Shown one piece after another: positions 237-38,460 of a DNA stretch of 64,000 bases. Location: the IMG/VR virus record IMGVR_UViG_3300042691_053984, positions 1-64,000 of that record. One strand, 5' to 3'. The stretch is from a virus. A program made the translations under genes and the position numbers. Below the pieces are notes generated by a model. The model did not search any database. It saw only the letters and a program-made list of their open reading frames with translations, and was not told the origin of the DNA. The first letter of the stretch is position 1. Every line of letters starts with the position of its first letter.

Positions 237-950
237 TCACCCGTGATAGTGCCTGCTCCAGAACTCGTTGCGTGCCACGGAGGAGATGAGGTCCTTCACC
301 TCGTTCCTCACGTTGGGGATGTCAGACAGCTCCTTCATCGTCGCCTCGTGCTGCGCCTCCAGGTACCGGAGCATGTCCCTCTCCCAACCCTCTGCCTCGT
401 ATGCGTAGTTGAGGTGTTCCTTGTGTTCATCATGGAATACGCTGCAGTCGTCCTCTTTCGGCGGCGTCTGCGGTGACAACTCGTCGTCAAACTTGTGACG
501 TTTTCGCCCGCTGTCGGCCACCTTCTTCCACGCCTGCCGCGCGCTTCCTGACACAGACCCCCTGTCCGACGTGAGGAGACCGTTCTTCGACAGGGCGTAA
601 CCCATACCGTACACCTCCTTGCCGAAACCTGGGCCCACCGAAAACGCGACGATGTCAGCGCCGTGACACTTGGTCTGGTTCCAGACCGCGATGTACCCCT
701 TCACTATCCTGTTGACGGCCACGACCGTCATCTCTTGACGGTACGCGAGGGGCTTCATCTCGTGCGGAACGTCGATGAACTCATCCCCGTAGCGCAGGTA
801 GTCGATCAGCGCGTTCGTGTCGTACAGGTACGCCCTCTTCATTTCCCCGTCCCGGACGACGAGCGCACCCAGGCCCGTGACCTTGCCGAGGGCGGACTCC
901 TCCTCCGACAACAACCTCCTCATCACCCTCTCGTATATCGTGGTTCTCAT
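237..950 (-). CDS. Tandem-paralogue family protein 1 (subtype A), putative packaged protein
   Basis: A 237-residue member, last in a run of six related minus-strand genes (4826 to 237). I chose ATG 950 because GGGGAG lies 5 nt upstream and the family N-terminus starts there (MRTTIYERVMRRLLSE). Family landmarks: a TNALIDYL-GDEFID segment near residues 45-60, YGMGYALS-G-LTSDR-SVS near the middle, FDD then TPP-DDC, and NYAYEAEGWE followed by a helical C-terminus ending in HYHG. It is closest to the gene at 3316 (both have GPGFGKE and LEAQHEAT); the other four form subtype B. No catalytic fold recognised. The leader resembles T4 capsid-targeting peptides, so delivery with the virion is an inference. 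Confidence 0.8.
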   Translation of the reverse strand: MRTTIYERVMRRLLSEEESALGKVTGLGALVVRDGEMKRAYLYDTNALIDYLRYGDEFIDVPHEMKPLAYRQEMTVVAVNRIVKGYIAVWNQTKCHGADIVAFSVGPGFGKEVYGMGYALSKNGLLTSDRGSVSGSARQAWKKVADSGRKRHKFDDELSPQTPPKEDDCSVFHDEHKEHLNYAYEAEGWERDMLRYLEAQHEATMKELSDIPNVRNEVKDLISSVARNEFWSRHYHG

Positions 951-969
951 CGTCACTCCCCTTGCCCCG

Positions 970-1734
970 TCAATCGTTGTCTTCACCGGGGTACTCATTT
1001 TCCCACAGTTCCTGGGCCGCCTCTTTCAATAATCTGTGCAGCACCCGGGTCACGAAGGGATCGTTCGTGGCCGCGCTCAGCTCCGCCACGAAGGTCTCGT
1101 GTGACGAGGAGAGCCACCGCAGCTCCCCCGCCTCCCAACCTTGGGACTCGTAGGCGTGCTGCAGCTGTGGGTTCTTCTCCGGTGGCGTCTCCCCGGAACC
1201 CACGTACAGCTTGCAGTCGTCGCCCGGGAAGTCAGGCGTCCTGCGCTGTTCCTTGGGCAGTGAGACGTCGTCGAACTCCTTCGACCGTCGTTTCTTGCCG
1301 CTGAATATTCGCATCCACGCCCTCTTCGCCGGGAGAGACACGGAGGACCGGTCTGACATCAGGATTCCCTCGTCTGACATGGCGTAACCCAGGCCGTAGA
1401 TGGTGCGTGCGTTCTCGGCCGCGTCGACCCTCTGCTGCGCGACCGCCATCTTCACCTCCCAAGCTCCCCAGCACGGGTTCTTGGGGGCCACGATGACGAT
1501 CTTCCCCCGGATGGCCTCCCGCGCCGCCCGAGCCCCGACGTTCGGGTTCCACGAGGCCCCAACCCGTTGTTCGCTGTACAGGTCGTCGAAAATGGGTCGC
1601 AGCGCCACCGTGTCGTACAGGATGGCGATCCGGTCGAACGAGGAGCTCTCGTACACCCACGCCGCGAGGCGCGCTGCGCCCCCCGACTCCCGAAGCAACC
1701 TTCGGCACACCCTCTCGTATATCGTGTCAGTCAT
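970..1734 (-). CDS. Tandem-paralogue family protein 2 (subtype B), putative packaged protein
   Basis: A 254-residue protein. ATG 1734 is preceded by GGGGAG with 5 nt spacing, and it overlaps the stop of the upstream paralogue by 8 nt (ATGACTGA), which points to translational coupling. The N-terminus MTDTIYERVCRRLLRES is basic, amphipathic and ends in L-R-E|S, the type of site cut by T4-like prohead proteases. Then come NPCWGAWEV (about residue 90), IYGLGYAMSDEGILMSDR, a basic stretch before FDDVSLP, TPDFPGDDCKLY and LQHAYESQGWE. The C-terminus ends in PGEDND. Function unknown; the family is recognised only from its copies in this window. Confidence 0.8.
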   Translation of the reverse strand: MTDTIYERVCRRLLRESGGAARLAAWVYESSSFDRIAILYDTVALRPIFDDLYSEQRVGASWNPNVGARAAREAIRGKIVIVAPKNPCWGAWEVKMAVAQQRVDAAENARTIYGLGYAMSDEGILMSDRSSVSLPAKRAWMRIFSGKKRRSKEFDDVSLPKEQRRTPDFPGDDCKLYVGSGETPPEKNPQLQHAYESQGWEAGELRWLSSSHETFVAELSAATNDPFVTRVLHRLLKEAAQELWENEYPGEDND

Positions 1735-2560
1735 TGTCGCTCCCCGGATAGTGATGTCCAAAAAATGGGGGGAGGCTGTACCTTAGGTATTTCTCCAGCG
1801 CCCTTGGCAGCCTCTTGTCCTCCCTTGCCAGTTCATTGCTGAACGCATCGTGAGACGCGACGAGGTAGTTGAGCATTCCCTTCTCCCAACCCATCGACAT
1901 GTAGGCGTTCTGGAGAGCTGGGTTCTTGTCTGGTTCGGTCTTCCCCGACTTTCCCCTGTACAGATCACAGTCGTCCTTCGGCTCCGGCGTCTTCGGGTTT
2001 CTTGCGTCGTCGAAGGGCAGAGCCTGCCTCTCGCCTTTCTCACGCACCCGGGCCCACGCCGCCTTCGCGGGCCTGCTCGCAGAGATCCTGTCCGACATGA
2101 CGATTCCACTGGGTGACATTGCGTAGGCAAGACCGTACACCGTCCGCGCCATGTCAGCACCTCCCGGTGCCGCGGAACCCACGACCTCCCAGGCACCCCA
2201 ACACGGCTGGTCGGAGGCCTTGATCTGTATTATTCCTCGCACCGCGTCCTCCACCGCCTTGTTGCTCAGCTCTGCCTTTACGTCCACCGCTTCGTCACGG
2301 GTGCGCTGCGACGCTGCGTCAGTGCCCCACGCGGTGTTGTACCTGTCGTCGTGTTCCTTGAACTTGCGCAGTGATTTCATCACATCATCCGGTGAGTACA
2401 GGATCGCCGACTTCAACTGTCCTCCGGCCCCATCGAAGCACAGCGCCGCGAGCGGCAACAGGGCCCTCAGGTGTGAGGTGTGCTTCATGTCATCCTGCGT
2501 GTGCACGTCAGCCTCACACAGGATCCTCTCGTAGATCCTCTCGTAGATTCTTTCAATCAT
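1727..2560 (-). CDS. Tandem-paralogue family protein 3 (subtype B), putative packaged protein
   Basis: A 277-residue protein and one of the longest copies in the array. ATG 2560 has AAGGA 7 nt upstream and overlaps the previous stop by 8 nt (ATGATTGA). The leader MIERIYERIYERILCEAD repeats the element IYERI, as if the motif itself duplicated, and ends in L-C-E|A. It contains an extra segment of about 25 residues (near NTAWGTDAASQRTRDE) before the shared QPCWGAWEV block. AMSPSGIVMSDR, FDDARNPKTPEPKDDC and NAYMSMGWE follow, and the end is HYPGSDND. Function unknown. Confidence 0.8.
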   Translation of the reverse strand: MIERIYERIYERILCEADVHTQDDMKHTSHLRALLPLAALCFDGAGGQLKSAILYSPDDVMKSLRKFKEHDDRYNTAWGTDAASQRTRDEAVDVKAELSNKAVEDAVRGIIQIKASDQPCWGAWEVVGSAAPGGADMARTVYGLAYAMSPSGIVMSDRISASRPAKAAWARVREKGERQALPFDDARNPKTPEPKDDCDLYRGKSGKTEPDKNPALQNAYMSMGWEKGMLNYLVASHDAFSNELAREDKRLPRALEKYLRYSLPPFFGHHYPGSDND

Positions 2561-3314
2561 TGTCCGGTCCTTCGTAGTGTTTGCTGAAGAATTCCGACTC
2601 CGCGAACGACAGGAGTCGCATTGCCGCCTTCGTGGCGGCCGATCCGAACTCCTCTTCCACCTCGTCCATGAACATCTCGTGCATCGCAACGAGGTCATGA
2701 AGCCTGTCCTTCTCCCACCCCTGGGACTTGTATGCGTATTGCAGGTGTGGGTTCTTCTCCGGTGGTGTCAGTTTCGAGGTTCCCCTGTACAACTTGCAGT
2801 CGTCCCCCGGGAAGTCAGGGGTTCGCCGCTTGTCAACGGGCAAGGAGACGTCATCGAGTTCCAACCGCTGCCTCTTGTTTCCGGCGTACACACGCTCCCA
2901 CGCCGCCTTCGCCTTCTTGCTCATCGAGCCCCTGTCCGACATCAAGACGCCTCCGTCAGACAGGGCGTAACCCAACCCATAGGTGATCCTTGCGATGTCC
3001 GGACCTCCCGGGGCAGCAGCCGCGGTGACCTTCCAGGCCCCCCAACACGGGTTGCGGGGCGGGGCAACGTTGATGATTCCCTTCACCGCAGTGTCGGCCG
3101 TGAGCTTGTGAAGCTTCTCCCTCAACGTGTAGTTGTCAAGATCGTACTTCTGCGCTGATCCCGTGTACTCTGCGATGTGATCCAGCAGTTCCTGCGGGTT
3201 GTAGATGACGGCACGCCGTTCTCCGAATTCCTCCCTGACGTACGCCGCGAGCCGTGAGGTGTCGTCCATCGACTCCCTGAGAAGTCGCTTGTAGATGTTC
3301 TCCAGTAGCTTCAT
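2553..3314 (-). CDS. Tandem-paralogue family protein 4 (subtype B), putative packaged protein
   Basis: A 253-residue protein. ATG 3314 has GAGG 4 nt upstream, almost abutting the stop of the upstream gene at 3316. The leader MKLLENIYKRLLRES ends in L-R-E|S. It keeps NPCWGAWKV, TYGLGYALSDGGVLMSDR, LELDDVSLP, TPDFPGDDCKLY and LQYAYKSQGWE in the same order and spacing as the gene at 970. The C-terminus is EFFSKHYEGPDND. The PxND-type ending is shared by three of the subtype B copies. Function unknown. Confidence 0.8.
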   Translation of the reverse strand: MKLLENIYKRLLRESMDDTSRLAAYVREEFGERRAVIYNPQELLDHIAEYTGSAQKYDLDNYTLREKLHKLTADTAVKGIINVAPPRNPCWGAWKVTAAAAPGGPDIARITYGLGYALSDGGVLMSDRGSMSKKAKAAWERVYAGNKRQRLELDDVSLPVDKRRTPDFPGDDCKLYRGTSKLTPPEKNPHLQYAYKSQGWEKDRLHDLVAMHEMFMDEVEEEFGSAATKAAMRLLSFAESEFFSKHYEGPDND

Positions 3315-3315
3315 A

Positions 3316-4044
3316 TCACCTCTTCCAGTAGTGCTTCTGCCAGAATTCACCGATCGCCACGGAGGCGATGAGCCCCTCAACCTCTCTTCTGGCGTTGGGG
3401 ATGTCAGACAACTCTTCCATCGTCGCCTCGTGCTGCGCCTCCAGGTACCGGAGCAGTCCCTTTTCCCAGCCTTCTGCCTCGTACGCGTAGTTCAGGTGTT
3501 CCTTCTCTGGGTCGTTGTGCACTTTGCAATCGTCGTCAGTGGGCGGGGTCACCTTCAATTTCCAGTCGTCGAACTTGTGCCTCTTTCGACCCTTTTCAGC
3601 GACGTTCCTCCACGATGCAGTCGCCTCGCCAGACACGGTGGTCCTATCAGGAGCTAGCAGTCCGTTTGGTGACATGGCGTAACCAAGACCGTATATCTCC
3701 TTGCCGAAACCTGGACCCGCTGCGAGGGACACAACGGCCGCGTCGTAGCAGGGGCCTGTGTCTTCGCCGGGCGTCTTTATCTCGATGAATCCCTTCAAGA
3801 TCCTCTCTTTGGCGACTTTTCTTGTCTCTGACCTGTACGAGAGCTCTCTTCCCTCGAAGCCGTGGGGCGAGTCGATGAACTCGTCTCCGTAAAGTAAGTA
3901 GTCGATCAGTAAATTGGTGTCGTAGACGTATGCCGTCGTGAACTCGCTCTCCCGCCGCACGAAAGCCCCCAATCCAGCTGCGTTGGAGATCGCATATTCC
4001 TCCAACAACCTTGTCATGACCCTTTCTATCAGAGTTTTTCTCAT
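3316..4044 (-). CDS. Tandem-paralogue family protein 5 (subtype A), putative packaged protein
   Basis: A 242-residue protein most similar to the gene at 237: both have TNLLIDYL/TNALIDYL, GDEFIDSPH/GDEFIDVPH, GPGFGKE, KFDD, NYAYEAEGWE and LEAQHEATM. A start at ATG 4044 (MRKTLIERVMTRLLEE) aligns with the family. A GTG at 4062 would overlap the upstream stop and cannot be excluded. The leader ends in L-E-E|Y. Two subtype A copies lie apart in the array (positions 1 and 5), so at least one duplication involved a multi-gene block or rearrangement. Function unknown. Confidence 0.75.
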   Translation of the reverse strand: MRKTLIERVMTRLLEEYAISNAAGLGAFVRRESEFTTAYVYDTNLLIDYLLYGDEFIDSPHGFEGRELSYRSETRKVAKERILKGFIEIKTPGEDTGPCYDAAVVSLAAGPGFGKEIYGLGYAMSPNGLLAPDRTTVSGEATASWRNVAEKGRKRHKFDDWKLKVTPPTDDDCKVHNDPEKEHLNYAYEAEGWEKGLLRYLEAQHEATMEELSDIPNARREVEGLIASVAIGEFWQKHYWKR

Positions 4045-4058
4045 GTGTCCTGCCCTTG

Positions 4059-4826
4059 TCACAAATCCGAAGGTCCGAGGGACATGTCATTGAAGTGGAC
4101 GTCCCAGTAGTGATCTGTCATGTTGGATAACAACTCGTGAATCTCTTCACGGGCATCCTCACCGAATTCTTCCCCCACTGCGTCCCTAAATTTCGAGTGA
4201 TTTTTCCGCACCTGGCCCTCAAATGCGTCTTCCCAGCCTTGGGATTCATACGCATACTGTAGCTGTGGGTTGTCGTTCGGGGCCTCAGACCCATCCTTTC
4301 CACGAAATAGCTGGCAATCGTCGTCGGGAAAGCCCGGCGTCTGTCGTTGTTCCTCCGGTACAGAGACGTCGTCAAGCGGACGAGTTTTCCTCTTCTTGCC
4401 CTTGAAGATATTCATCCACGCGCCACGCGCCTTGTCCGAGACAGAGGTTCGATCTGAGGTGAGCGTTCCGACACTTGACATGGCGTACCCAAGTCCGTAC
4501 GTAGACTTCGCGTCATCACCTGACGCTATGGCCTTCACCTCCCACGCACCCCAACACGGATCCTTGTGAGGTTCGGCCCATATGTACCCCTTGATCACCT
4601 CATCCACGAAGAATGAGACCGTGTTGAACGATTTGTCTTCCCATTCCTGCGGGTCCATTTCCCTCATCCTGAGGAATTCCATGTAAGCGTTCGTGCTGTA
4701 CAGGATTGCGTCTAGGCCTTGCCCATGCCTATAGACGTAGGCGGCACGCCCATTTGCGGTGGGTTCATTAGAGGCCTCGCGAAGGAGCCTTTTCAACACT
4801 TTCAACTTGATGACGTCTCGTCGCAC
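4059..4826 (-). CDS. Tandem-paralogue family protein 6 (subtype B), first gene of the array
   Basis: A 255-residue protein. No ATG fits the family N-terminus. GTG 4826 is 7 nt after AAGGA and gives a leader ending KVLKRLLREAS; a TTG closer to KVLKRLL is the alternative. The open frame continues far upstream, but that part overlaps the divergent lysin gene and is not expected to be translated. It contains DPCWGAWEV, TYGLGYAMSSVGTLTSDR, a KKRKTRPLDDVSVP stretch, TPGFPDDDCQLFRG and LQYAYESQGWE. The C-terminus (NDMSLGPSDL) differs from the other copies. As the first gene of the array, it is transcribed from the divergent region 4827-4911. Confidence 0.75.
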   Translation of the reverse strand: MRRDVIKLKVLKRLLREASNEPTANGRAAYVYRHGQGLDAILYSTNAYMEFLRMREMDPQEWEDKSFNTVSFFVDEVIKGYIWAEPHKDPCWGAWEVKAIASGDDAKSTYGLGYAMSSVGTLTSDRTSVSDKARGAWMNIFKGKKRKTRPLDDVSVPEEQRQTPGFPDDDCQLFRGKDGSEAPNDNPQLQYAYESQGWEDAFEGQVRKNHSKFRDAVGEEFGEDAREEIHELLSNMTDHYWDVHFNDMSLGPSDL

Positions 4827-4846
4827 TCTGGCATCCTTCCTTTGGC

Positions 4847-4878
4847 TGTGAAACAACGCAATTCTATGTGATATATAT
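4847..4878 (+). promoter_or_regulatory. Promoter, TGTGWAA-N14-TATA type
   Basis: TGTGAAAC, 14 nt, then TGATATATAT. The same spacing and core recur before 6078, 12234, 12880 and the tRNA array at 27258. It lies in the divergent region before the lysin at 4912. Confidence 0.6.
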
Positions 4879-4911
4879 ACACCCCAACTTGAATACGAAG
4901 GAGTCGTCAAG

Positions 4912-5616
4912 ATGCGTAGTAATAAAATTATAAGTTTCATCGTGACCCTTACGGCGTTCCTCCTCCTTGGAACGGCCGCCGACGTGATGGCACGTCCACC
5001 CGCAAAGCCTTCAAGGATCGTGCTTGGTAGCCCTCCGCCTAATTGGGTGCCCGAGGGTCCGGGATGGTTCGTGGTACCGTCTCGGGACGAGCTGTTGTCA
5101 TTCCCCGCATCCAGTGGAGAGTGGCGTACGGTGTATTCTTGGATCGACGGTTGCGTCGAGATCGGACGTGTGAAGTACTCCATGGTGGACCAACTTGACG
5201 TTCTTGCCGTCCTCAGGTTGGAGGATTACCTCGGCGTTCCGTGGGAGGCGCGTGGAATCCTTGCATCGGTGTGGTGCATGGAGGCGAGCATGCTAAAGAC
5301 CGGTCGAGGAGGAGGCCCGGTACGCGGTGACTGGCACAACGGAGTTGCGCGTGCCCACGGTCCTGCACAGCTTTGGCCTTGGTTTCGCAATTGGTGTGGT
5401 CTCGGGCCACGTGGTGCGGATAACCTATTCGGAGCGCTCACTTGTTATTGGTCTCGAATGGTAGACAGGTTTCATCACAGAAATGCTTCGCGCTGTGGCC
5501 ACCCGTGGCGGGTCGCCGAGGCGCTCGCGGCAAATGGTCCCAGGTATCTCAATGCAGGGTGCGACGCAGAATCCAGTCACTGGAGGCAGATGTTGCGATG
5601 GCAGCGTAATATATAA
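4912..5616 (+). CDS. Secreted lytic transglycosylase/lysozyme-like lysin
   Basis: 234 residues. The N-terminus is a clear signal peptide: a basic MRSNK start, hydrophobic residues 6-22, then likely cleavage after DVMA. The mature part has a transglycosylase-like core: GILASVWCMEASML (the Glu is the likely catalytic acid, about residue 126), then AHGPAQLWPWF, which resembles the S-x-G-x-x-Q-x-x-P motif of soluble lytic transglycosylases. Several Cys residues fit a periplasmic protein with disulphides. AAGGAG sits 8 nt before ATG 4912. It is divergent from the paralogue array. The likely role is peptidoglycan cleavage at lysis or entry; the exact family is an inference from these motifs. Confidence 0.65.
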   Translation: MRSNKIISFIVTLTAFLLLGTAADVMARPPAKPSRIVLGSPPPNWVPEGPGWFVVPSRDELLSFPASSGEWRTVYSWIDGCVEIGRVKYSMVDQLDVLAVLRLEDYLGVPWEARGILASVWCMEASMLKTGRGGGPVRGDWHNGVARAHGPAQLWPWFRNWCGLGPRGADNLFGALTCYWSRMVDRFHHRNASRCGHPWRVAEALAANGPRYLNAGCDAESSHWRQMLRWQRNI

Positions 5617-6077: not shown

Positions 6078-7058
6078 ATGACAGAAACACAACACTGCGT
6101 TGCCACGTTCGATAACCTGTACCTCGTACCAGGTCACAGTGACATTGAAAGCAGGCACGACATCGATTTGACGCCAAATTCCACGGACGTAGCAGTATTC
6201 CAGAACCCGATCATCGCAGCCCCAATGGACACGGTGGTTAACTCTGAGGTCGCAAGCATCATGAGGGAGTTGGGCGGTTCTGCCGTGCTTCATCGGTACG
6301 CGAGCATCGAGGCCCAGCGCGATGAATTCCTCGGAGTTCCTGATGGATATCAGCACGGCGTTTTTTGCGCGGTGGGTGCGGCGGGAGATTGGTGGGAGAG
6401 GTTCCAGGAGTTGTACGCGGCGGGCTGTCGATATTTTTGCGTCGACGTCGCCCACGGTTTCCACAAGCAGGTCGGTCTCGCGCTGGCGCGCATGTCGACT
6501 GAGAAGAGTGACGTTCACCTGATGGCGGGAAACGTGGCCGACCTGAATGGATTTGACTTCCTAGTGAATCACGGTGCGCAATACGTCCGTGTCGGAGTCG
6601 CCGGCGGGTCCGTGTGTGAGACAAGGAACAAGACGGGATTTGGTCTTCCGACCCTCGAATCTGTCGTCCGCTGCGCGCGGTCGACAACTGACGGCATCAT
6701 CGTCGCCGACGGCGGAATTCGTGACAGCGGGGACATCGTCAAGGCGCTTGCCTGTGGCGCCGACATGGTGATGCTTGGGTCCATGCTGGCGGCCCACAGA
6801 GAGTCACCTGGGGATCTTGTAGAAAAAGATGGTGTAACCTATAAGGTTTTTCGTGGTATGGCATCGGAAGGGGCCCAGAAAGACTGGAGAGGTTGGGTTT
6901 CGGTCGCTGAGGGACGTGAGACTCTTGTTCCCCTGAAGGACCGTCCTCTTCGAAAGACCGTGGACACCATTCTGCGAGGCGTCAAGAGTGGATTGTCTTA
7001 CGCCGGTTGTCGATCGTTGATTGGGTTCCCGGAACGATGTCACAAAGTTTTTGCCTAA
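6078..7058 (+). CDS. IMP dehydrogenase / GMP reductase family enzyme
   Basis: 326 residues with a TIM-barrel of the IMPDH/GMPR family and no CBS domains. Landmarks: NPIIAAPMDTV near residue 45, the catalytic loop GGSVCETRNKTGFGLP (Cys nucleophile), IIVADGGIRDSGDIVKALACGADMVMLGSM for phosphate binding, and YKVFRGMASEGAQ. The KTGFG sequence after the Cys is closer to GMP reductases, but I cannot separate IMPDH from GMPR with certainty. It would alter host purine nucleotide pools during infection. No intein interrupts it. The start lacks a ribosome binding site and lies 7 nt after TTATAG, which fits a leaderless mRNA. Confidence 0.85.
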   Translation: MTETQHCVATFDNLYLVPGHSDIESRHDIDLTPNSTDVAVFQNPIIAAPMDTVVNSEVASIMRELGGSAVLHRYASIEAQRDEFLGVPDGYQHGVFCAVGAAGDWWERFQELYAAGCRYFCVDVAHGFHKQVGLALARMSTEKSDVHLMAGNVADLNGFDFLVNHGAQYVRVGVAGGSVCETRNKTGFGLPTLESVVRCARSTTDGIIVADGGIRDSGDIVKALACGADMVMLGSMLAAHRESPGDLVEKDGVTYKVFRGMASEGAQKDWRGWVSVAEGRETLVPLKDRPLRKTVDTILRGVKSGLSYAGCRSLIGFPERCHKVFA

Positions 7059-10887: not shown

Positions 10888-11070
10888 ATGAAGATCACAA
10901 TCAATGAACTGAAAAGAATCATCAGGGAAGTTCTTAGTCAAGAGGCGGTTCCGCCCGGGAAATGGTCCGGCGATGCATCAGGTCCTGCTAGTGATGAGGA
11001 CCTTGAGAGGCTAGGGGGTGATACGTCTGTGGTTCCTTCGTCAGAAATAGGCGGAAGACGAAGACGATGA
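10888..11070 (+). CDS. Small protein with capsid-targeting-like leader
   Basis: 60 residues. The N-terminus MKITINELKRIIREVLSQE nearly matches that of the gene at 26794 (MKITINELRKIVRSVVSE), and the DNA around both starts is also similar (CATAGATATTTGC-ATG against TATAGATATGAAC-ATG). The leader ends in I-R-E|V. The rest is low-complexity, rich in Gly, Ser, Pro and Asp, with a GGRRRR end. There is no ribosome binding site, and the -10-like CATAGA is exactly 7 nt before ATG. Possibly a head-packaged peptide (inference). Confidence 0.6.
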   Translation: MKITINELKRIIREVLSQEAVPPGKWSGDASGPASDEDLERLGGDTSVVPSSEIGGRRRR

Positions 11071-11372
11071 GGTTTGGTCATCGCAACGCAAGCACGCTAC
11101 GTGCATACATCAGGTCTGTCCTGATGGAAATGGGAGGTCCTGCATCTGCATCAGGAACTGACCCAAAAGACGCAAAGGGGTTTTATCCTTATGATATCGA
11201 AAGGGGCGCCGACATTCACTCCTTTTGGTATCGATCCCCAGGCAGAGGGATGGGTAGTGATGGAGATTTCAGGCCCGACGATCCCATGTCTTACATCGGG
11301 ATGTCAGCACCTGCATCGGCTGAGGCAGATGCTACGCCTGCATCCACCACAACCGAGGAACCCTCCGCTTAA
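11067..11372 (+). CDS. Hypothetical protein with capsid-targeting-like leader
   Basis: 101 residues; the start overlaps the previous stop (ATGA). Residues 1-22 form a basic amphipathic helix (STLRAYIRSVLMEMG) with a V-L-M-E|M end, like the other leaders in this window. The rest is low-complexity (Asp, Gly, Ser, Ala, Thr), probably disordered, with an aromatic patch HSFWYRSPGRGMG. Paired with the gene at 10888, it may be a small head-packaged protein. No domain recognised. Confidence 0.55.
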   Translation: MRFGHRNASTLRAYIRSVLMEMGGPASASGTDPKDAKGFYPYDIERGADIHSFWYRSPGRGMGSDGDFRPDDPMSYIGMSAPASAEADATPASTTTEEPSA

Positions 11373-16474: not shown

Positions 16475-16484
16475 TTAATTATAT
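16475..16484 (-). promoter_or_regulatory. Late-type promoter box ATATAATTAA (minus strand)
   Basis: Read on the minus strand, ATATAATTAA lies about 25-30 nt before ATG 16451, similar to the boxes before the other fibre operons. It overlaps the 3' end of the upstream gene. Confidence 0.35.
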
Positions 16485-19400
16485 CAGACTTTCACGTATT
16501 CCACGTCGAACGTTACGTCTCTTCTCTGCGCCTGCACGAAGTAGAAGAAGTCGACGACCTCTCCTTCCACATGGAGCGTGATCCTCTCCGGTGACACTGA
16601 AGTCACGTAGAAAGACTGCATGCCTCCAATCGGGGTGATCTGCACAGTGACAGAGTCAGGGAACACGAGGTTTGTCCAGTACTCTGGGAGCACGATCTCC
16701 GTTGAGCTTGAACGTCCTCTCGCGTAGATACCATGCTCAGGTCCTTCAAGAGAGCCGTACTGTAGCTTCCAGCCTGGTTTGCTTGGGTGGTCGATGACGA
16801 AGCTCTTGGAGCTTGCCTTCAAGGACCCGCTGACAGTAAGGTCGCCGTCGAAGAGCGAGACGTTGGCGGCGCCTTGCGATCCGACGTAGAAGAACGTGTC
16901 GGAGTTCACTGAACCCGAACCGATCATCACGTGGCCTTCGTTCACGATGAAGATGTCTCTTCTTCCACCGCCTTCGCTACCGTTGCCCACCACGAGGAGA
17001 GAATCGGAGTTGTTCAGCTTGTTGTACTTTCCGAAAACGGCCTGCGCAGAGCCAGAGGCAACAACGTATTCGCCTGAGGCGAACGCGTAGTTGCCTGCCG
17101 CCACGGACCCGAGCCCCATCGTGGTTGATCCGTACCCACTTGCCAAGGTCGCGACACCACCAGCGTGTGAGAAGTTACCCAATGCGGTCGTATCTTTACC
17201 TTCAGCGTGAGAACCGATTCCCGTCGCCAATGAGCCGCTACCTTCGGCATGTGAGGCTTCACCGCGGGCTACTGTGAACACACCTTCAGCGTGTGACCAA
17301 GAGCCGGATGTTGTCGTCGCCTTACCTTCAGCATGTGACCATGAGCCAGAGGCAATCGTTGACCATCCTTCAGCGTGCGAGTAGTTGGCCGGAGCTGATG
17401 TCAAGAATCCTTCAGCGTGAGCCGCGACACCCATCGCCAATGAACCGCTGCCTTCCGCGTGAGAGCCTGCACCACCTGCCGTCGTCAAGTCACCTTCCGC
17501 GTGAGCGAACAGGCCTGACGCCAGAGAGAACCTGCCTTCCGCGTGAGCATAGTCGGCCGAGCCCGTCGACATGTAACCTTCCGCGTGAGAAGCCTCACCA
17601 ATCGCCACGGTCTCTCGTCCTTCCGCGTGGGCATAATCCCCGCCGGACCAGACATCTCCTGCACCCATGATGCCTGTCTTGGTATCATATCCTTCCGCGT
17701 GAGAACCTAAACCGAAGGCAATCGTGTTCCATCCTTCCGCGTGGGCGGAATCACCGCCTGACCACCCAGACGAACCTGAGGCACCTGTCTGGGTACTAGT
17801 TCCTTCCGCGTGAGAACCTCCACCGAAGGCAATCGTATTGCCTCCTTCTGCGTGAGCATCGTTTCCACCCACCCAGACATCATCTGCACCCATGACACCT
17901 GTCTTGGTGTTGTATCCTTCCGCGTGAGAGCTTTGACCGAAGGCAATCGTGTTCCATCCTTCCGCGTGGGCATAGTTGCCACCAGACCACCCAGACGAAC
18001 CTGAGGCACCTGTTTGGGTACTAGTTCCTTCAGCGTGAGAACCTGCACCGAAGGCAGTCGTGCTGTTTCCTTCTGCGTGGGCATAGTTACCACCCGTCCA
18101 GACATCATCTGCACCCATGACACCTGTCTTGGTCCCAGCTCCTTCCGCGTGAGAGCTTTGACCGAAGGCAGTCGTGCTCTCTCCTTCCGCATGGGCGGAA
18201 TCACCGCCAGACCACCCAGCTGAACCTGAGGCACCTGTCTTGGTATCATATCCTTCCGCGTGAGAACTTAGACCGAAGGCAATCGTGGTGCTGCCTTCCG
18301 CGTGGGCATTGCCTCCACCGCTCCGGACTCCTTCGTAGTTTGTTGCTCCAGTCTGGGTCTGATACCCTTCCGCATGGGACGAGAGACCCGTAGCAATGCT
18401 CAAATTCCCGTTCGCCAGCGAGCCCGTGAGGAACACCGTGCCTCCCGCGAAAGTGAAGGCCGAAGACGCCGCAAATGCACCACCGTTGTTGTACTGGATT
18501 CCGGTGTCCGGCGATCCAGGTGTCGTAGTCGCCGTGGACGTGATGGTCACTGCACCGTTCGACTCCGAAGAAATCGAGATGCCCGTTCCGGCGATGAGGT
18601 ACGAAGTTCCGTCTGCGAGCGTCGTCAGTGAACCTGACAGGCCCTCGTTGAACTTCACCGCACCTGTGAACGTCGAGCCTGAGATCGTGGCAACCACACT
18701 GTTGTTGACGCTGAGTGTGTAGGCGCCGTTTGCACCACTGTCTGTCGACACGAGGCCTGTGCCCATCGTCAGTTGACGCTCATTTGTGAGCGTTCCATCG
18801 TATCCCAAGGTCAGGTAAGATGCACCGACCGGTGCGCTCGATGGAACAGTCGCAGCGATTGTAACCGACCCGTTCGACTCAGTCGTCAGCGTGATGTTTG
18901 CCCCCGCCTTGAGGTAGTCGCTTCCGTCAGCCAGCTTCGTCAACGAACCGCTGAAGCCGAGGCTCGCAGTGATGATCGAGGCCTGCAGTTTGGCGACCTG
19001 AAGGTTGGAGTATGAAGTGAGTGCAACCGGTAAGCTGCCTGTCGCGGACGAAGCCGTCCTGCCCAGGGCAAACTCGTCGGCCGTCTCCTTCCACAGGAAG
19101 GCCACATTGTCCTCTCCCGATAGACCCATGATGAGACCTCTGTCACCGACAGGCGCCGCGATGGTACCTGAGGCAAAACCGAGACCGACCACGGAGTCAG
19201 ACACTTCGAGGTTCGTGGTGTTCACGGTGACGAACAATCCGTTTACGATGAGGTCACCTGCCACCACTGCGTTCTGCACGCTGAGGGTGTCCGTGTCCTT
19301 GTTGAAGGTGAAGGTTGAGTCACCCGCAAATGAATTGTTGTCGTTGAACTGGACCTGTGTCGTGGATCCACCCGCGTTCGTCGTGGCTGTCGAGGCGATC

Positions 19401-22400
19401 TCGATCCACCCACCTGAACCTGTCGTCACGGTGATGGCTGCACCCGCACGGATGTAGGACGTCCCGTCCACGAGCTGTGTCAGTGAGCCTGACAGGCCCT
19501 CGTTGAACTTCACCACACCTGTAAAAGTGGACCCAGAGATCGTAGCCACCACACTGTTGTTGATGCCCACCGTGTAGTTTCCGCCGAGACCGCCATCGGT
19601 TGATACGAGACCTGTACCCATGGTGAAGACGCGCTCATTCGTGAGGGCGCCGTTGAGTCCCAATGTCAGGTATGAAGCGCCGGCCGGTGCCAGTCCCGTC
19701 GTGGCAATTGTCACTGACCCATTTGACTCCGTCGTCAGTGCGATGTTGGCTCCTGCCTTGAGGTAGTCGCTATCGTCTGCAAGCTTTGTCAGAGAACCAG
19801 ATAGGCCTTCGTTGAACTTCACCACACCTGTGAAAGTGGACCCAGAGATCGTCGCCACCACACTGTTGTTGACACTGAGTGTATAGGCGCCGTTTGCTCC
19901 TCCGTCGTTAGAAAGAAGCCCTGTTCCCATCGTCAGTTGACGCTCATTCGTGAGCGTTCCATCGTATCCCAAGGTCAGGTAAGACGCGCCGACCGGAGCG
20001 CTTGATGGCACTGTTGCAGCGATCGTCACCGCGCCGTTTGACTCCGTCGTCAGTGTGATATTGGCACCTGCCTTGAGGTAGTCGCTTCCGTCAACCAACT
20101 TTGTCAGAGAACCACTGAAACCCAAGCTTGCAGTGATGATCGAGGCCTGTAGGTTGGCGACGTGAAGGTTCGAGTACGAGTTGAGAGAGATCGGTAGGCT
20201 GCCCGTCGAGCTGGCGCTCGTCCGACCCAACGCAAATTCATCAGCGACCTCCTTCCACAGCAATGCCACGTTATCCTCATTCTGCAGACCCATGATGAGG
20301 CCTCTATCACCTGCAGGTGCCGCGAGGGTGCCTGAGGCAAATCCGAGTCCGATCACCGAGTCTGATACTTCGAGGTTTGTGGAATTGACTGTGACGAATG
20401 TACCGTTGACCGTGAGGTCTCCGGCCACAATCACATTCTGCACGTTCAAGGTGTCAGTATCCTTGTTGAAGGTGAAGGTTGAGTCACCTGCGAAGGCATT
20501 GCTGTCGTTGAACTGTACCTGTGTCGTGGAACCGCCTGCGTTTGTCGTGGCCGTCGAGGCAATCTCGATCCAACCGCCCGAGCCCGTCGTCACAGTGATG
20601 GCTGCACCCGCACGGATGTAGGACGTGCCGTCCACGAGCTGTGTCAGTGAGCCTGACAGGCCCTCGTTGAACTTCACCACACCTGTGAAGGTTGATCCAG
20701 AGATCGTGGCCACCACATTGTTGTTGATTCCGATCGTGTAAGCACCGTTTGCTCCGCCGTCGGTGGACAAGAGACCTGTGCCCATCGTCAGTTGACGCTC
20801 ATTCGTGAGCGTTCCATCATAGCCCAACGTCAGGTAAGATGCACCGACCGGAGCGCTTGATGGCACCGTCGCAGCGATCGTAACTGACCCATTCGACTCC
20901 GTCGTCAAGGTGACGTTGGCACCTGCCCTCAGATAGTCGCTACCATCAACCAACTTCGTCAATGAACCGCTGAGGCCCACAGCAAACCTGCCTGTGCCTG
21001 ACACATAGGTGTTGCCTGCAAAGGTGGCCGTGTTTCTGGCTCCTTGCGTTCCTACGTACAGGAACGTGTCTGTACCCAGCGAGGCGGACCCGATCATCAC
21101 GTTGTCAGGGTTGACGAGGAAGATGTCGTTCCGGTCGTTGTTGGCAGTGCCATCTCCAACGATGAACAGGGAGTCTGTGTTACCCGTCTTGTTCCATCGA
21201 CCCACCACATTCTGGCCAACGCCTGCTGCGATAGTACCCACGCCTGCTGCGTGAGAGTAGTTGGCTGACGCAGTAGTCAGAGTGCCCTCTGCGTGTGAAG
21301 CTTGCCCCGAAGCCAGTGTGCGCCACCCTTCGGCATGCGCGGAATCACCTGACGCCGTGGTGAAGTAACCCTCTGCGTGAGAGTAGAAACCGGTAAATTC
21401 AGCACCTGCCAGGGTACCGTAACCCTCTGCGTGTGAATATTGACCTGCGGCAGTAGTGAAGCCACCTTCAGAGTGCGCATTAGAATTTGAGGCCGTAGTG
21501 TAATAACCCTCTGCGTGAGCCCACGAACCCTCTGAGAGAGAGCCAAATCCTTCCGCGTGAGAGAAGTTACCCAGTGCTCTCGTCCCGTCACCTTCTGCAT
21601 GGGAAGCCACACCTTCGGCAATGGAGTACCATCCTTCCGCATGAGAGTTCTGGCCCGAAGCGATGGACCCCTCACCGTTCGCTAGCGAACCAGTGAGGAA
21701 CACCGTGTTGCTGGCAAACGTAAAGTCAGCCGATGCCGCAAAGGCGCCGCCGCTGTTGAACTGGATGCCTGTCTCGGGGGATCCGGGCGTCGTGGTAGAC
21801 GTGATGGTCACCGCGCCGTTCGACTCCGACGTGACCGTGATCCCTGCACCTGCGCGCAGGTAGGACGTCCCGTCCGTAAGAGTTGTCAGAGAACCAGATA
21901 AACCTTCATTGAACTTCACTGCGCCCGTGAAGGTTGAACCAGAGATCGTCGCCACCACACCGTTGTTGATGCCCACGGTAAAGTTTCCACCTGCACCACC
22001 GTCAGTGGCAACAAGACCCGTTCCTGCCGTAAAAACCCTCTCATTGTCGAGGCTTGCGTCTGACGCAAGCGTCAAGAACTGAGCAGTCGGTGCAGCGCCT
22101 CCCGCAGCCGAGATCGTCACCTGACCCAACCCACCAGTTGTCAACGTGATGTTGGCGCCTGCCCTGAGGTAGTCGCTGCCGTCAACCAACTTCGTCAGAG
22201 AACCGCTGAAGCCCAGGCTTGCCGTGATGATGGCACCCTGGATGTTGGCGACTCGTAGGTTTGCGTAGGAAGAAAGCGCGACCGGAAGGCTTCCCGTGGC
22301 CGAAGATGCAGTCCTGCCCAACGCAAATTCATCTTGTGCCTCCTTCCACAGGAGGGCCACGTTGTCCTCGTTGCTGAGGCCCATGATGAGGCCCCTGTCA

Positions 22401-22927
22401 CCCACCGGGGCTGCGATTGTGCCGGACGCAAATCCCAGACCGACGACGGAGTCGTTCACCTCGAGGTTCGTGGTGTTGACAGTGACGAACGTTCCGTTCA
22501 CCGTGAGGTCGCCCGCGACCACCACGTTTTGTACACTGAGGGTGTCAGTGTCCTTGTTGAAAGTGAACGTGGAATCTCCGCCAAAGGTTCCACCGTCGTT
22601 AAATTGGACGCCGTTTGAGGTGGCTGCAGGGGCCACCGTGGATGCGATCGTGACCGCGCCGTTCGACTCCGTCGTCAGCGAGATGCCCGCTCCTGCGCGG
22701 AGGTAGTCGCTGCCGTCGTCGAGCTTCGTCAACGAACCCGTGAGGCCTTGAGCCACGACGAGTGGCCCCCCCTCGAATGTGAAAGCCTGACCTGTTTCGT
22801 CAAGCGTGAATGTCATGGCGCCTTGCGCGCCGATCGTGAGACTTGAAGTCCCACCAGCTGAACCGGTGAACTCGACGCGCGGATCGCCGCCCGTCAACCT
22901 ACCTGGTTTAATGATTAAGTCTGACAT
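16484..22927 (-). CDS. Giant modular tail-fibre protein (2147 residues) with YadA-like beta-roll repeats
   Basis: 2147 residues. Residues 1-80 match the N-terminal anchor of the gene at 15678. Then come repeated modules GLSGSLTKL-DGSDYL-AGA followed by LTTESNGSVTI and TLTNERQLTMGTGL. Two beta-roll regions follow (about 426-562 and 1510-1945) built of 14-residue SHAEG/AHAEG repeats, like the heads of YadA-type trimeric adhesins. The second region holds alternating 37- and 38-residue units. Neck elements (VVGRWNKTGNTDSLFIVGDG, GTDTFLYVGTQG) join modules. The C-terminal domain (from about 2040: KSFVIDHPSKPGWKLQYG) is shared with the gene at 22960. Probably a trimeric receptor-binding fibre. GGGAG lies 11 nt before ATG 22927. 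Confidence 0.85.
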   Translation of the reverse strand: MSDLIIKPGRLTGGDPRVEFTGSAGGTSSLTIGAQGAMTFTLDETGQAFTFEGGPLVVAQGLTGSLTKLDDGSDYLRAGAGISLTTESNGAVTIASTVAPAATSNGVQFNDGGTFGGDSTFTFNKDTDTLSVQNVVVAGDLTVNGTFVTVNTTNLEVNDSVVGLGFASGTIAAPVGDRGLIMGLSNEDNVALLWKEAQDEFALGRTASSATGSLPVALSSYANLRVANIQGAIITASLGFSGSLTKLVDGSDYLRAGANITLTTGGLGQVTISAAGGAAPTAQFLTLASDASLDNERVFTAGTGLVATDGGAGGNFTVGINNGVVATISGSTFTGAVKFNEGLSGSLTTLTDGTSYLRAGAGITVTSESNGAVTITSTTTPGSPETGIQFNSGGAFAASADFTFASNTVFLTGSLANGEGSIASGQNSHAEGWYSIAEGVASHAEGDGTRALGNFSHAEGFGSLSEGSWAHAEGYYTTASNSNAHSEGGFTTAAGQYSHAEGYGTLAGAEFTGFYSHAEGYFTTASGDSAHAEGWRTLASGQASHAEGTLTTASANYSHAAGVGTIAAGVGQNVVGRWNKTGNTDSLFIVGDGTANNDRNDIFLVNPDNVMIGSASLGTDTFLYVGTQGARNTATFAGNTYVSGTGRFAVGLSGSLTKLVDGSDYLRAGANVTLTTESNGSVTIAATVPSSAPVGASYLTLGYDGTLTNERQLTMGTGLLSTDGGANGAYTIGINNNVVATISGSTFTGVVKFNEGLSGSLTQLVDGTSYIRAGAAITVTTGSGGWIEIASTATTNAGGSTTQVQFNDSNAFAGDSTFTFNKDTDTLNVQNVIVAGDLTVNGTFVTVNSTNLEVSDSVIGLGFASGTLAAPAGDRGLIMGLQNEDNVALLWKEVADEFALGRTSASSTGSLPISLNSYSNLHVANLQASIITASLGFSGSLTKLVDGSDYLKAGANITLTTESNGAVTIAATVPSSAPVGASYLTLGYDGTLTNERQLTMGTGLLSNDGGANGAYTLSVNNSVVATISGSTFTGVVKFNEGLSGSLTKLADDSDYLKAGANIALTTESNGSVTIATTGLAPAGASYLTLGLNGALTNERVFTMGTGLVSTDGGLGGNYTVGINNSVVATISGSTFTGVVKFNEGLSGSLTQLVDGTSYIRAGAAITVTTGSGGWIEIASTATTNAGGSTTQVQFNDNNSFAGDSTFTFNKDTDTLSVQNAVVAGDLIVNGLFVTVNTTNLEVSDSVVGLGFASGTIAAPVGDRGLIMGLSGEDNVAFLWKETADEFALGRTASSATGSLPVALTSYSNLQVAKLQASIITASLGFSGSLTKLADGSDYLKAGANITLTTESNGSVTIAATVPSSAPVGASYLTLGYDGTLTNERQLTMGTGLVSTDSGANGAYTLSVNNSVVATISGSTFTGAVKFNEGLSGSLTTLADGTSYLIAGTGISISSESNGAVTITSTATTTPGSPDTGIQYNNGGAFAASSAFTFAGGTVFLTGSLANGNLSIATGLSSHAEGYQTQTGATNYEGVRSGGGNAHAEGSTTIAFGLSSHAEGYDTKTGASGSAGWSGGDSAHAEGESTTAFGQSSHAEGAGTKTGVMGADDVWTGGNYAHAEGNSTTAFGAGSHAEGTSTQTGASGSSGWSGGNYAHAEGWNTIAFGQSSHAEGYNTKTGVMGADDVWVGGNDAHAEGGNTIAFGGGSHAEGTSTQTGASGSSGWSGGDSAHAEGWNTIAFGLGSHAEGYDTKTGIMGAGDVWSGGDYAHAEGRETVAIGEASHAEGYMSTGSADYAHAEGRFSLASGLFAHAEGDLTTAGGAGSHAEGSGSLAMGVAAHAEGFLTSAPANYSHAEGWSTIASGSWSHAEGKATTTSGSWSHAEGVFTVARGEASHAEGSGSLATGIGSHAEGKDTTALGNFSHAGGVATLASGYGSTTMGLGSVAAGNYAFASGEYVVASGSAQAVFGKYNKLNNSDSLLVVGNGSEGGGRRDIFIVNEGHVMIGSGSVNSDTFFYVGSQGAANVSLFDGDLTVSGSLKASSKSFVIDHPSKPGWKLQYGSLEGPEHGIYARGRSSSTEIVLPEYWTNLVFPDSVTVQITPIGGMQSFYVTSVSPERITLHVEGEVVDFFYFVQAQRRDVTFDVEYVKV
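17089..18400 (-). repeat. Coding repeats: SHAEG beta-roll, 37/38-residue tandem units
   Basis: Encodes 14-residue SHAEG/AHAEG repeats. From about 17630 to 18370 these are expanded into alternating 37- and 38-residue units (TKTGVMGADDVW type and TQTGASGSSGWSGG type), about 111 and 114 bp, with high DNA identity between copies. Confidence 0.8.
18762..18835 (-). repeat. Dispersed 70-bp class coding repeat (copy 1 of 3)
   Basis: This stretch (encoding TLGYDGTLTNERQLTMGTGL) recurs almost identically at about 19926-20000 and 20780-20853 in the same gene. Such direct repeats allow unequal recombination to lengthen or shorten the fibre. Confidence 0.7.
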
Positions 22928-22959
22928 GATGAGTGTTTCTCCCTTTGTGATTTGTTTGG

Positions 22960-25900
22960 TTAACCTTCGTACTCAACATCAAAAGTAAAGTCTGTTCTCT
23001 CTGCCTGGGCCTTGTAATAATATTCGATGTCGTTATCCAGGCATTCGACACTGAATTCTGAGATAGAGGTTGTAACCACGTAAATGACACTAGGAGACCC
23101 GATGGGTGTGAGGTGGACAGTGATGGAAGATTCGTCCACGAGGTTTTTCCAATATTCCGGTAGCTTGACAGTTCTTTCCTTCGTTCGACCCCTCACGTAC
23201 ACACCGTTCTCTGGTCCCTCAAGCGTCCCGTGACGCAGTTTCCAACCTGGTTTGTTTGGGTGTTCAATGACGAAGCTCTTCACGGTGGCGGCAAACTCAC
23301 CGTTCACTTCAAGTGCGTAATTTGGTGTGGAGGTATTGATACCTACCTTTGAATTGACGACAGACAATGTGCTGACGTTGTTACCATTCTTGACGTCAAG
23401 CGTGCCGCTGACGACCATATTTCCGTCGAAACGAGCGTTTGCGGCGGTTCCTTTTGTGCCCACATAGAAGAAAGTGTCGGGTGCTAGCGAGGCCGAACCA
23501 ACCATGACGGAACCGGAGTTGACGAGGAATATGTTACTTCTTTCTCCCAAACTACTGAACGGGCCTAAAGTGTTGGTTGGGGTCGGGTACCAGCCGTCCC
23601 CGTTGCCAACAATGAACAGGGAATCAGTATTCAGTCTGTTATATTTACCCACCACGGTCTGGTGGTTTCCCTGCGCAAAGGTGTACAAACCTCCTGCGTG
23701 CGAGTATTCTCCGAAAGCAAGGCATCCTTGGCCTTCTGCGTGAGAGTAATTGCCATAAGCGCGAGTGTACTGGCCTTCTGCGTGAGAAAAATTACCCGAT
23801 GCAGTCGTAATGCTGCCCTCTGTGTGGGAACCTTGACCAGACGCGAGTGTGTACGTGCCCTCTGCGTGGGCGGCGAAGGCGGATGCTGTGGTGAACCAAC
23901 CTTCGGCGTGAGAAGAACCACCTTGGGCTAACGTGTCAATGCCTTCGGCATGATCGCCGCTCGCTGCGGCACGAGTACGTACGCCTTCCGCGTGAGTGTA
24001 TGGTGCAGACGCCGTGGTGAGCCAACCTTCGGCGTGAGAGTAGTTGCCTTGCGCAAGAGTCAACCGGCCTTCGGCATGTGACCATTGACCTGAAGCAAGT
24101 GAACCTGAGCCCTCTGCGTGTGCGCCAAGGCCTGAGGCAACAGTGTTACCTCCTTCAGAGTGTGAGAATTGACCTGAAGCAAGTGAACCTGAGCCTTCCG
24201 CGTGGGCGGCCTGACCTTGTGCAACGTTTCTGAAACCTCTTGAGTGAGAGAAATCACCGGACGCTGTGGTGAGGTAGCCTTCCGAGTGAGCAGCCTGTCC
24301 TTGTGCCGTTGTCAACTCACCTTCTGCGTGAGAGAAATCACCGGACGCTACGGTGCGATAACCCTCAGTGTGAGCAGTCTGCCCTGATGCCACCGTCTCC
24401 TCTCCTTCTGCGTGCGCAAAAGAATTTGAAGCCGTCGTGAAGTAACCTTCTGCGTGAGAGTAGATGCCTTCCGCAAGCGTAAATTCTCCCTCTGCATGTG
24501 AGCCCAGGCCGGTTGCACGTGTCGAGTCTCCTTCGGCGTGGGCGTACCAGTCCGACGCCGTGGTGAAGTAACCTTCTGCGTGAGAGTAGTTGCCCTGCGC
24601 AAGCGTTTGCCAACCCTCCGCATGCGCGCTGATGCCCACTGCTACCGTGAGCAGACCTTCCGCGTGTGTGGCGCGTCCTTCTGCACGTGTCTTCTCTCCT
24701 TCTGCGTGCGCAGCGAGGGCACTGGCTGTTGTGTACAACCCCTCGGTGTGAGAGTAGGTGCCGTCAGCCCAAGTCCTATATCCTTCTGAGTGTGCACCAA
24801 AGCCGTCTGCAATGGTCTCGTGACCCTCTGCATGTGCAGAGGTATTTGAAGCCGTAGAAAGAAAACCCTCGGCGTGTGAATAGGGGCCTTGCGCGTGCGT
24901 CTGTTGACCCTCGGCGTGAGAATATACTCCCTCAGCTAAAGTGTTGTCTCCGATGGATAGCGACCCAGTCAAGAAAACAGTGTCGCTTGCAAATGTGAAA
25001 TTCGCGGTCGCGGCAAATACGCCGCCATTGTTAAATTGTATACCTGTGTCGGGGGCGCCGGGCGGCGTGCCCACAGCAGACGTGATAGTGATCGCCCCAT
25101 TAGATTCCGAGGTGATCGAGATTCCCGCTCCCGCAATCAGGTACGATGTACCGTCAATAAGCTGGGTGAGTGAGCCGCTTAGGCCCACCTCAAACCGGCC
25201 AGTTCCCGACACGTATGTATCACCCGCAAATGTGGCCGTCGTGGCCGAGCCCTGCGTTCCCACATAAAAGAAAGTATCTGTACCTATCGATGAAGATCCT
25301 ACCATCACCGAATCAGGATTTACGAGTAAGATGTCACGACGGTTGGCGTTCGAATCCCCGGTGCCATTTCCCACGACGAAGAGAGAATCCTCATTGTCAC
25401 GCTTGTTGTACTTTCCGACGACAGTCTGGCCTGAACCAGAGGCGATGGTAAACACGCCGCCTGCATGAGAGTAGGTGCCTACTGCCTCTGAACCCCAACC
25501 CTCGGCATGCGAAGCGCCTCCAGAGGCCGTTGCGTAAAATCCTTCGGCGTGAGCGTAGTTCCCAAGGGCCCGAGTCCTATATCCCTCAGAGTGAGATCCG
25601 CCTCCCTCTGCGTGGGTGTACTCACCCTCAGCGTGAGAAGAATCACCCGATCCTGTGGTAAAAAGGCCCTCAGAGTGAGATTGCTCTCCTGAAGCCAGTG
25701 TGTACCAGCCCTCTGCGTGGGCACGAATCTCTGATGCCACAGTTAGCGTGCCCTCGGCGTGCGTCGCCATGGCAGACGCACGTGTAGACCATCCCTCTGC
25801 GTGCGAAAAGATGCCAGACGCAGTCGTTAAATATCCCTCAGAGTGAGCAGAGTCCCCGGAAGCAAGTGTATTATCTCCCTCTGCGTGCGCGCCCCCTCCT

Positions 25901-27333: not shown

Positions 27334-27347
27334 AAAAAAACATCGAT

Positions 27348-27419: not shown

Positions 27420-27436
27420 TCATCTTTATCTCATGT

Positions 27437-27530: not shown

Positions 27531-27537
27531 TCACCAT

Positions 27538-27610: not shown

Positions 27611-27616
27611 CTCATT

Positions 27617-38034: not shown

Positions 38035-38460
38035 TTACTTTACGATCTTAGAAACCGGTCTCTTGCTCCACATCCTACATGACCAGTAGGCTGCCTTTGT
38101 CCTGTCAGAGGCACGACCTGTACCGCACCCGTGACGCGCTCTGAAACTCTTTCGCGCCTTCGGGTTGTCACGACGTATCTCCATGTTGGGGTCACCGAAG
38201 TTGACCTTCTTCACGTTCCCAGTCTTGGGATCTTTGACGAAGACCTTGAACTTCTTCACGTCGCCTCGCATGGGTTTGCCCAGCTGCACTTTGCGTCCCC
38301 TATATTCGGCTTCGTTTAACGTGTTCGATTCCTCATCGATCGATTCATTGATGATTGCCGCAAAATTCAACTCGTAGTCCTCAAACACACCAGTCATCTC
38401 TAACATGATGGCTTCGTCTATTATCGTGTTGAATATGTCCTGAGAAATCTTTAACTTCAT
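38035..38460 (-). CDS. DUF5872-like virion protein with cargo-like leader
   Basis: 141 residues; AGGGG is 6 nt before ATG 38460. The N-terminus MKLKISQDIFNTIIDEAIML has an I-D-E|A site like the other leaders. From about residue 57 there is a basic domain: YRGRKVQLGKPMRGDVKKFK, VFVKDPKTGNVKKVNFGDPN, then RRDNPKARKSFRARHGC and YWSCRMW. From memory this domain matches DUF5872, common in phage genomes and often fused to head or core proteins. The conserved Cys and basic residues suggest nucleic-acid or metal binding. A head-packaged or virion role is inferred. Confidence 0.75.
   Translation of the reverse strand: MKLKISQDIFNTIIDEAIMLEMTGVFEDYELNFAAIINESIDEESNTLNEAEYRGRKVQLGKPMRGDVKKFKVFVKDPKTGNVKKVNFGDPNMEIRRDNPKARKSFRARHGCGTGRASDRTKAAYWSCRMWSKRPVSKIVK

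Follow-up and report, generated by a model that had tools for sequence, protein, structure and literature searches.

Near the start of the virus record IMGVR_UViG_3300042691_053984, six adjacent minus-strand genes (237-4826) form an array whose products are probably head-internal (ejection) proteins of a T4-type phage, which would be cleaved by the prohead protease and ejected into the host with the DNA. The window analyzed here comprises bases 1-64000 of this 132,858-base record. In T4, capsid-targeting sequences bring the internal proteins into the core of the prohead, and the protease gp21 cuts the sequences off before DNA is packaged (PMC5694885). These sequences are 10-19 residues long, and gp21 cleaves after L/I-x-E (PMC9026906). 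Packaged internal proteins with capsid-targeting leaders are an already known kind of protein. The protein superfamily and its array of six copies are new, and so is the evidence that uncultivated T4-type phages commonly carry sets of leader-tagged cargo; no description of the superfamily, the array, or such cargo sets turned up in the open-access literature.

The six open reading frames (ORFs) encode paralogues of 237-277 amino acids (aa) and lie in the coordinate order A1-B1-B2-B3-A2-B4, two of subtype A and four of subtype B. They are A1 (240..950, 237 aa), B1 (973..1734, 254 aa), B2 (1730..2560, 277 aa), B3 (2556..3314, 253 aa), A2 (3319..4044, 242 aa), and B4 (4062..4826, 255 aa), with usable starts at 950, 1734, 2560, 3314, 4044, and, as a GTG codon, 4826, respectively. 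Because the intergenic spacings are only +14, +1, -8, -8, and +19 bases, the array constitutes one compact operon, read B4>A2>B3>B2>B1>A1 from the GTG at 4826 in its first gene, B4, to the stop at 237 in its last, A1. Promoter and terminator scans gave signals at chance level only. With B3 as the query, the full record yielded exactly these six copies (E 1.7e-176 to 1.2e-29), and the GC content of the array is 58.8% versus 47.9% for the window. The original prediction had placed six adjacent minus-strand paralogues at exactly these coordinates, and the ORF list bears this out. It had also proposed a common order of motifs. The proteins can be aligned from end to end, and 38 columns are invariant; the motif CWGAWEV, however, is confined to the B copies, the A copies reading CHGADIV and CYDAAVV. 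The assignment of each copy to subtype A or B was likewise right; the strict alternation of subtypes was not, since the copies run A B B B A B. The tree suggested at that stage separates an A1+A2 clade (support 100/99) from a B1-B4 clade (100/98). A1 and A2 are 61% identical, whereas A1 shares 33-37% identity with the other copies. The loop GPGFGK is kept in A1 and A2, and the GxG loop is gone from all four B copies.

All six proteins start with a basic amphipathic leader of 14-17 residues that ends in L-x-E, the glutamate standing at residue 14-17. The leaders, with a slash at the putative cut, are MRTTIYERVMRRLLSE/E in A1, MTDTIYERVCRRLLRE/S in B1, MIERIYERIYERILCE/A in B2, MKLLENIYKRLLRE/S in B3, MRKTLIERVMTRLLEE/Y (or LLE/E) in A2, and MRRDVIKLKVLKRLLRE/A in B4, and in this order their ends read RRLLSE/E, RRLLRE/S, ERILCE/A, KRLLRE/S, TRLLEE/Y, and KRLLRE/A. 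A strict form of this pattern is present in 6/6 array genes versus 8/122 other genes of the phage, a comparison framed after the array had been seen and in which the six copies are related to one another. The stronger tests of the leader are therefore those made in other phages. The leaders of other leader-bearing genes of the array phage are only loosely similar to those of the array. An unrelated 101-aa protein (11067..11372, plus strand) carries a comparable leader (MRFGHRNASTLRAYIRSVLME) and has a similar leader-bearing counterpart in another phage record, L039 (5135-5440). An unrelated 141-aa protein of phrog_7595, a family with no assigned function (38035..38460, minus strand), begins with MKLKISQDIFNTIIDE/A and has a relative in the same L039 record (4684-5082). 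Several of the eight other genes with the strict pattern belong to the cluster of head genes (112-127 kb of the record). Such a position would also suit proteins of the head core or scaffold type, which the leader brings into the prohead for a role in assembly or DNA condensation rather than for action on the host, and T4 IPIII does influence head assembly (PMC9026906). This explanation is unlikely in view of the strong variation of the family between phages in sequence and in copy number (1 to 6 copies), the compact, enzyme-like predicted fold, and the recognizable enzymes among the neighbors that share the leader.

The same record encodes the components of a T4-type head among its other genes: a gp23 major head protein (phrog_138, E 1.8e-73), a gp20 portal (phrog_213, E 4.7e-67), and a gp21-type maturation (prohead) protease (phrog_207, E 1.1e-49). 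The N-terminus of this gp23 major head protein itself carries an L-x-E site (MSQLLENQAAQVLKE/SN; QVLKE/S around the cut). A tblastn search of 50,697 phages with this head protein matched 2,530 records, all at less than 60% identity, including Microcystis, Flavobacterium, Prochlorococcus, and enterobacterial T4-like phages.

Relatives of the array proteins were found mainly among viral contigs. Neither Pfam nor PHROGs yielded a usable hit for the six proteins or for 37 relatives, a tblastn search of the 50,697 phages with seven family members gave no match, scanning viral contigs with B3 as the sole query gave none either, and a PDB sequence search with the family profile returned a chance match to syntaxin only. 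Alignment-based scans of the viral contigs recovered six other records with 1-4 copies each, and a codon-degenerate scan for DRxSVSxxAxxVW led to a much larger superfamily characterized by the motifs GxGPLLYDIA, DRxSVSxxAxxVW, LDD, and TPxxDDC/DNC. The array family matches this superfamily with an hhalign E-value of 2e-25, and hidden Markov model (HMM) searches in both directions gave E-values of 1e-8 to 1e-25 for most members, against 1.2 at best for decoys. On these profile comparisons, we regard the homology of the two as secure. A further scan yielded 118 viral stretches, of which 78 loci were kept. Among 84,980 species genomes, a first scan found no relative and a second found 4 loci, all in metagenome-assembled genomes, where they are probably phage contigs. 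In five records (L048, L055, L083, L102, and L111), the domain lies inside ORFs of about 2000-3400 aa, and no gp21-type protease was detected in them.

In a tree built without the leader, a protein of L007 is nearest to the A/B group. The separate A1+A2 and B1-B4 clades indicate that the amplification is specific to this lineage as sampled, and it is old enough to have given identities of 33-61% to A1. Lineage-specific clades are also what a selfish or neutral tandem duplication with no special role would leave. Such an origin is very improbable as the whole explanation, since all six ORFs are intact and keep the same 38 columns and the leader, and related phages also keep 2-4 copies. With intact ORFs, conserved columns and leader, and identity down to 33%, the array has evidently been maintained for a long time.

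The wider superfamily allowed the leader to be assessed in members that had been found by the domain motif alone, with a search pattern that held no leader term. The leaders of the broad family differ from phage to phage, as in MNLLREYIRELLTE/S, MKLIMENWRKFLNE/G, MKKLLTEWRKFLAE/G, and MRITESTLRQLIRETLLTE/A, and the L-x-E end recurs. The pattern [LIF]xE[AGS] is present in the leader region of 30/33 single-domain members versus 103/443 (23%) control ORFs, which are unrelated, of similar size, and scored in matched windows (p 5e-15). If a methionine must also lie 7-22 residues ahead of the glutamate, the counts are 28/33 versus 70/443 (p 2e-16). In the fusion proteins, an internal site lies just before the domain in 6/9 cases, compared with 28/135 windows elsewhere in these proteins (p 0.006). 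Since related phages contribute members that are only partly independent, these p-values serve as guides.

Leaders are also clearly shared with unrelated neighboring genes in eight records (L009, L010, L050, L067, L079, L103, L117, and L154). L067 and L079 contain runs of adjacent genes that all start with a leader of the type MKxLLTEWRxYLxES; the leader type is LREYIR in L050, mostly LRQYIR in L103, L117, and L154, and MKIRLxxLRxIIRE in L009 and L010. Behind these shared leaders stand an ART-PolyVal domain (E 1.3e-7), an RNase_T exonuclease (1.5e-13), a zeta-toxin-like kinase (1.3e-12), a polyA polymerase head domain (2e-36), and a PAP2 phosphatase (7e-9). A leader carried by unrelated cargo is the behavior expected of a sorting signal and, by analogy, resembles the arrangement in T4. 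Beside two family members in L009 (6629-7690, minus strand), a leader-bearing 354-aa protein looks ADP-ribosyltransferase-like by eye and has no Pfam match. In L039 (8652-13099), a bacterial trio of consecutive DUF444 (YeaH-like), SpoVR, and PrkA kinase genes directly adjoins a distant family member within a phage record.

The protease family follows the same division. The phrog_207 protease is encoded in 17/19 long contigs with leader-bearing single-protein members versus 0/5 contigs with giant ORFs (p 5e-4), a co-occurrence in gene content that connects leader-bearing proteins with the enzyme expected to cut the leader off. The roles of basic amphipathic helices are many, and this leader, a packaging signal by prediction, might instead be another sorting or interaction helix, for example for binding a membrane or a partner, on proteins that act in the cell late in infection. 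We think this improbable, to about the same degree as a core or scaffold role or slightly more so, given the constant L-x-E ending, placed where a T4 targeting sequence would end, the internal LxE ahead of the domain in the fusions, and the association with the gp21-type protease.

Several observations weigh against packaging and cleavage as proposed here. In A2, the residue after the cut would be E or Y rather than A, S, or G; most leader starts were picked by eye or by simple rules; a search of the window for the T4 late-promoter octamer found none; and 2/19 of the leader-bearing long contigs have no detected protease, in records that may be incomplete. Packaging, cleavage, and injection are predictions from sequence. 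The original prediction had ventured that the array might be a set of injected effectors, and this idea is now well supported because of the L-x-E leader, the T4-type protease, the presence of the leader on unrelated enzymes in related phages, and the co-occurrence of leader and protease. That these effectors would be directed at different host targets, as it further suggested, is conjecture.

The mature domain behind the leader has an alpha/beta fold in AlphaFold2 models of B3 (15 sequences; pLDDT 85.9, pTM 0.82) and of the relative in L066 (37 sequences; pLDDT 87.2, pTM 0.86). Around the conserved motifs, the models show a strand, a glycine loop, a helix, a short strand, and a helix, comparable to motifs A and B of the GNAT acetyltransferases. 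Judged from these models, it is probable that the domain has a divergent GNAT-like fold of the acetyltransferase superfamily. The top PDB structure matches for both are acetyltransferases (NAT9 and KKT23; PaiA), weak at E 0.12 and 0.45, and in BFVD, named GNATs appear at E 0.02-0.06, with several unnamed phage proteins ranked above them. In the broad family, a candidate motif A (GxGPLLYD) is followed by a candidate motif B (SxxAxxVW) at matching spacing, an arrangement that the four B copies have lost. The alignment of a profile built from 16 bacterial GNATs takes the predicted motif A/B register and scores 19.1, versus at most 14.8 for 30 column shuffles.

This assignment has points against it as well. 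The same GNAT profile alignment has an hhalign probability of only 1.6%, the strand order of the models departs from that of a textbook GNAT, and the most invariant residues (DR, DD, and TP..DDC) are not known GNAT catalytic residues. There is no significant match to a GNAT profile in Pfam, where one PF00583 hit has E 0.12, or to a solved structure in the PDB, where E-values are above 0.1. For want of a significant match, we call the domain GNAT-like and do not file it as GNAT. The earlier statement that no domain could be recognized agrees with Pfam and PHROGs, although fold and motifs hint at a divergent GNAT-like domain; the structure check proposed with it, run on B3, gave a confident model for which acetyltransferases rank first in the PDB, at E above 0.1.

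The proteins may also be packaged and ejected with a domain that is not GNAT at all but a phage-specific fold acting as a binding inhibitor, the extra copies being decoys or variants. The lack of a significant PDB, Pfam, or PHROG match and the loss of the GxG loop in 4/6 copies speak for this, and T4 Ip1-3 are inhibitors of GmrSD enzymes (PMC12373910). The order of the structural elements is GNAT-like, however, the candidate motifs A (GxGPLLYD) and B (SxxAxxVW) fit a GNAT register, and GNATs rank top among the structure matches. A non-GNAT inhibitor is thus a real but lesser possibility, the foremost of the alternatives considered here. With GPGFGK lost, the B copies may not bind acetyl-CoA, a suggestion drawn from their loop sequence.

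How the array might act can be outlined for our preferred reading, that of ejected head-internal proteins. The operon would be translated late in infection, and the 14-17-residue amphipathic leader, acting like a T4 capsid-targeting sequence, would bring each precursor into the prohead core. The gp21-type prohead protease would then cut after L-x-E, and the mature domain, stored alongside the packaged DNA, would enter the host as infection begins. There, the six divergent copies would most likely act on, or block, different variants of a host target, for example a defense nuclease or a transcription component. As to target and activity, we can only guess. T4 Ip1-3, which have only the leader in common and each of which blocks a different GmrSD defense nuclease (PMC12373910), would be the model for the divergence of copies. 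The original prediction had left the choice between dosage and diversity open. Diversification is favored and dosage disfavored because identity to A1 is only 33-61% and the putative cofactor loop is missing from the B copies; divergence among the six agrees better with variants of one host factor, such as a family of defense nucleases, than with dosage.

The closest known parallels are T4 Ip1, Ip2, Ip3, and Alt, which likewise have a short N-terminal leader ending in L/I-x-E, belong to a phage with T4-type head and protease genes, and combine several leader-bearing proteins per phage with unrelated mature domains behind a shared leader, a feature that is clear in the eight records named above. 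The array differs in that its mature domain is unrelated in sequence to theirs, is larger, and is present as six homologous copies in one operon; the leaders follow consensus sequences of their own, and packaging here is predicted. In phiKZ and SPN3US, a protease related to gp21 cuts paralogous head proteins that have identical N-terminal residues; the site is x-x-E, and the proteins are ejected (PMC5694885). The likeness lies in paralogous proteins whose N-terminus is cleaved, in the array by prediction. The propeptides in these phages are mostly longer than 100 residues, with AXE as the site in SPN3US, in contrast to the L-x-E leaders of 14-17 residues in the array.

A third comparison is with the polyvalent proteins of Iyer et al. 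2017 (PMC5512222), whose domain set, predicted to be injected with DNA, includes ART-PolyVal and two GNAT families. Here too, GNAT-like and ART domains are proposed to be injected, distant relatives occur in giant ORFs, and an ART-PolyVal protein lies within the same leader operon in L067. The array members are single-domain proteins (237-277 aa) with their own leaders, unlike the polyvalent proteins, to which several domains belong by definition, and the two GNAT families were set beside the array domain by description only. Rac of the phiKMV-like phages, which acetylates the alpha subunit of host RNA polymerase according to PMC7824862, resembles the array proteins in a possible GNAT-like fold and as a phage protein that may alter host machinery. 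In the passages that describe Rac, no capsid leader is mentioned, and the likeness is one of description.

Other features of the window lie beyond the array. The divergently oriented neighbor (4912..5616, plus strand) is transglycosylase-like by inspection (SVWCMEASM ... AHGPAQLW), with no match in Pfam or PHROG, and a gene resembling it lies close to a family member in L007. An IMP dehydrogenase/GMP reductase gene follows at 6078-7058 (plus strand; Pfam PF00478, E 1.6e-72). Two very long proteins of repeated SHAEG motifs, 2147 and 1252 aa (16484-26718, minus strand), resemble trimeric-adhesin head repeats and are probably fibers, and a 2054-aa protein (30863-37027, minus strand) is built of LYVGGxFTTLSGSxRxxLGAVDTTTG repeat units that resemble bacterial beta-propeller repeats. 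Between them, a cluster at 27258-30700 (plus strand) holds 10/11 tRNA genes of the window and is broken by a zinc-finger/endonuclease ORF (27828-28664) and other ORFs. Glycosyltransferase, nucleotide-sugar, and methyltransferase-like genes fill a long block at 50599-64000 (minus strand) that continues to about 79.8 kb of the record and is unusually large for the size of the phage. A second array suspected at 54-63.6 kb of the window was rejected, as it consists of sugar-metabolism genes from different families. Within the block, a UDP-glucose/GDP-mannose dehydrogenase gene (53909-56002, minus strand) is apparently split by a fractured intein at a GGHC site. The N-terminal part closes with a Hint-like segment (CIVGDTAVLT, with the Cys codon at 55225). 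Next come a free-standing endonuclease ORF of the Phage_endo_I/DUF7487-like kind (54193-54900) and then an IntC-like ORF ending NNIVVHN/CFPKDIN together with the C-terminal part of the dehydrogenase (54196 to 53909).

The proteins injected with phage DNA are largely unknown beyond a few model phages. Whether a general head-delivery system is common to many uncultivated T4-type phages, in which interchangeable leaders of 14-20 residues (MKITKxQLRxIIKEE, MKxLLTEWRxFLxEG, MNLLREYIRELLTES, and similar) route a large set of mostly unknown enzymes into the head and from there to the host, is in our judgment evenly poised. If it is, the six-copy GNAT-like family would be the most amplified cargo seen here of such a system, and leader scans would list injected effectors straight from sequence. 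If the leader is confirmed, such effectors could be predicted from metagenomic phage genomes, and the array would be a good system in which to ask why phages amplify one effector family.

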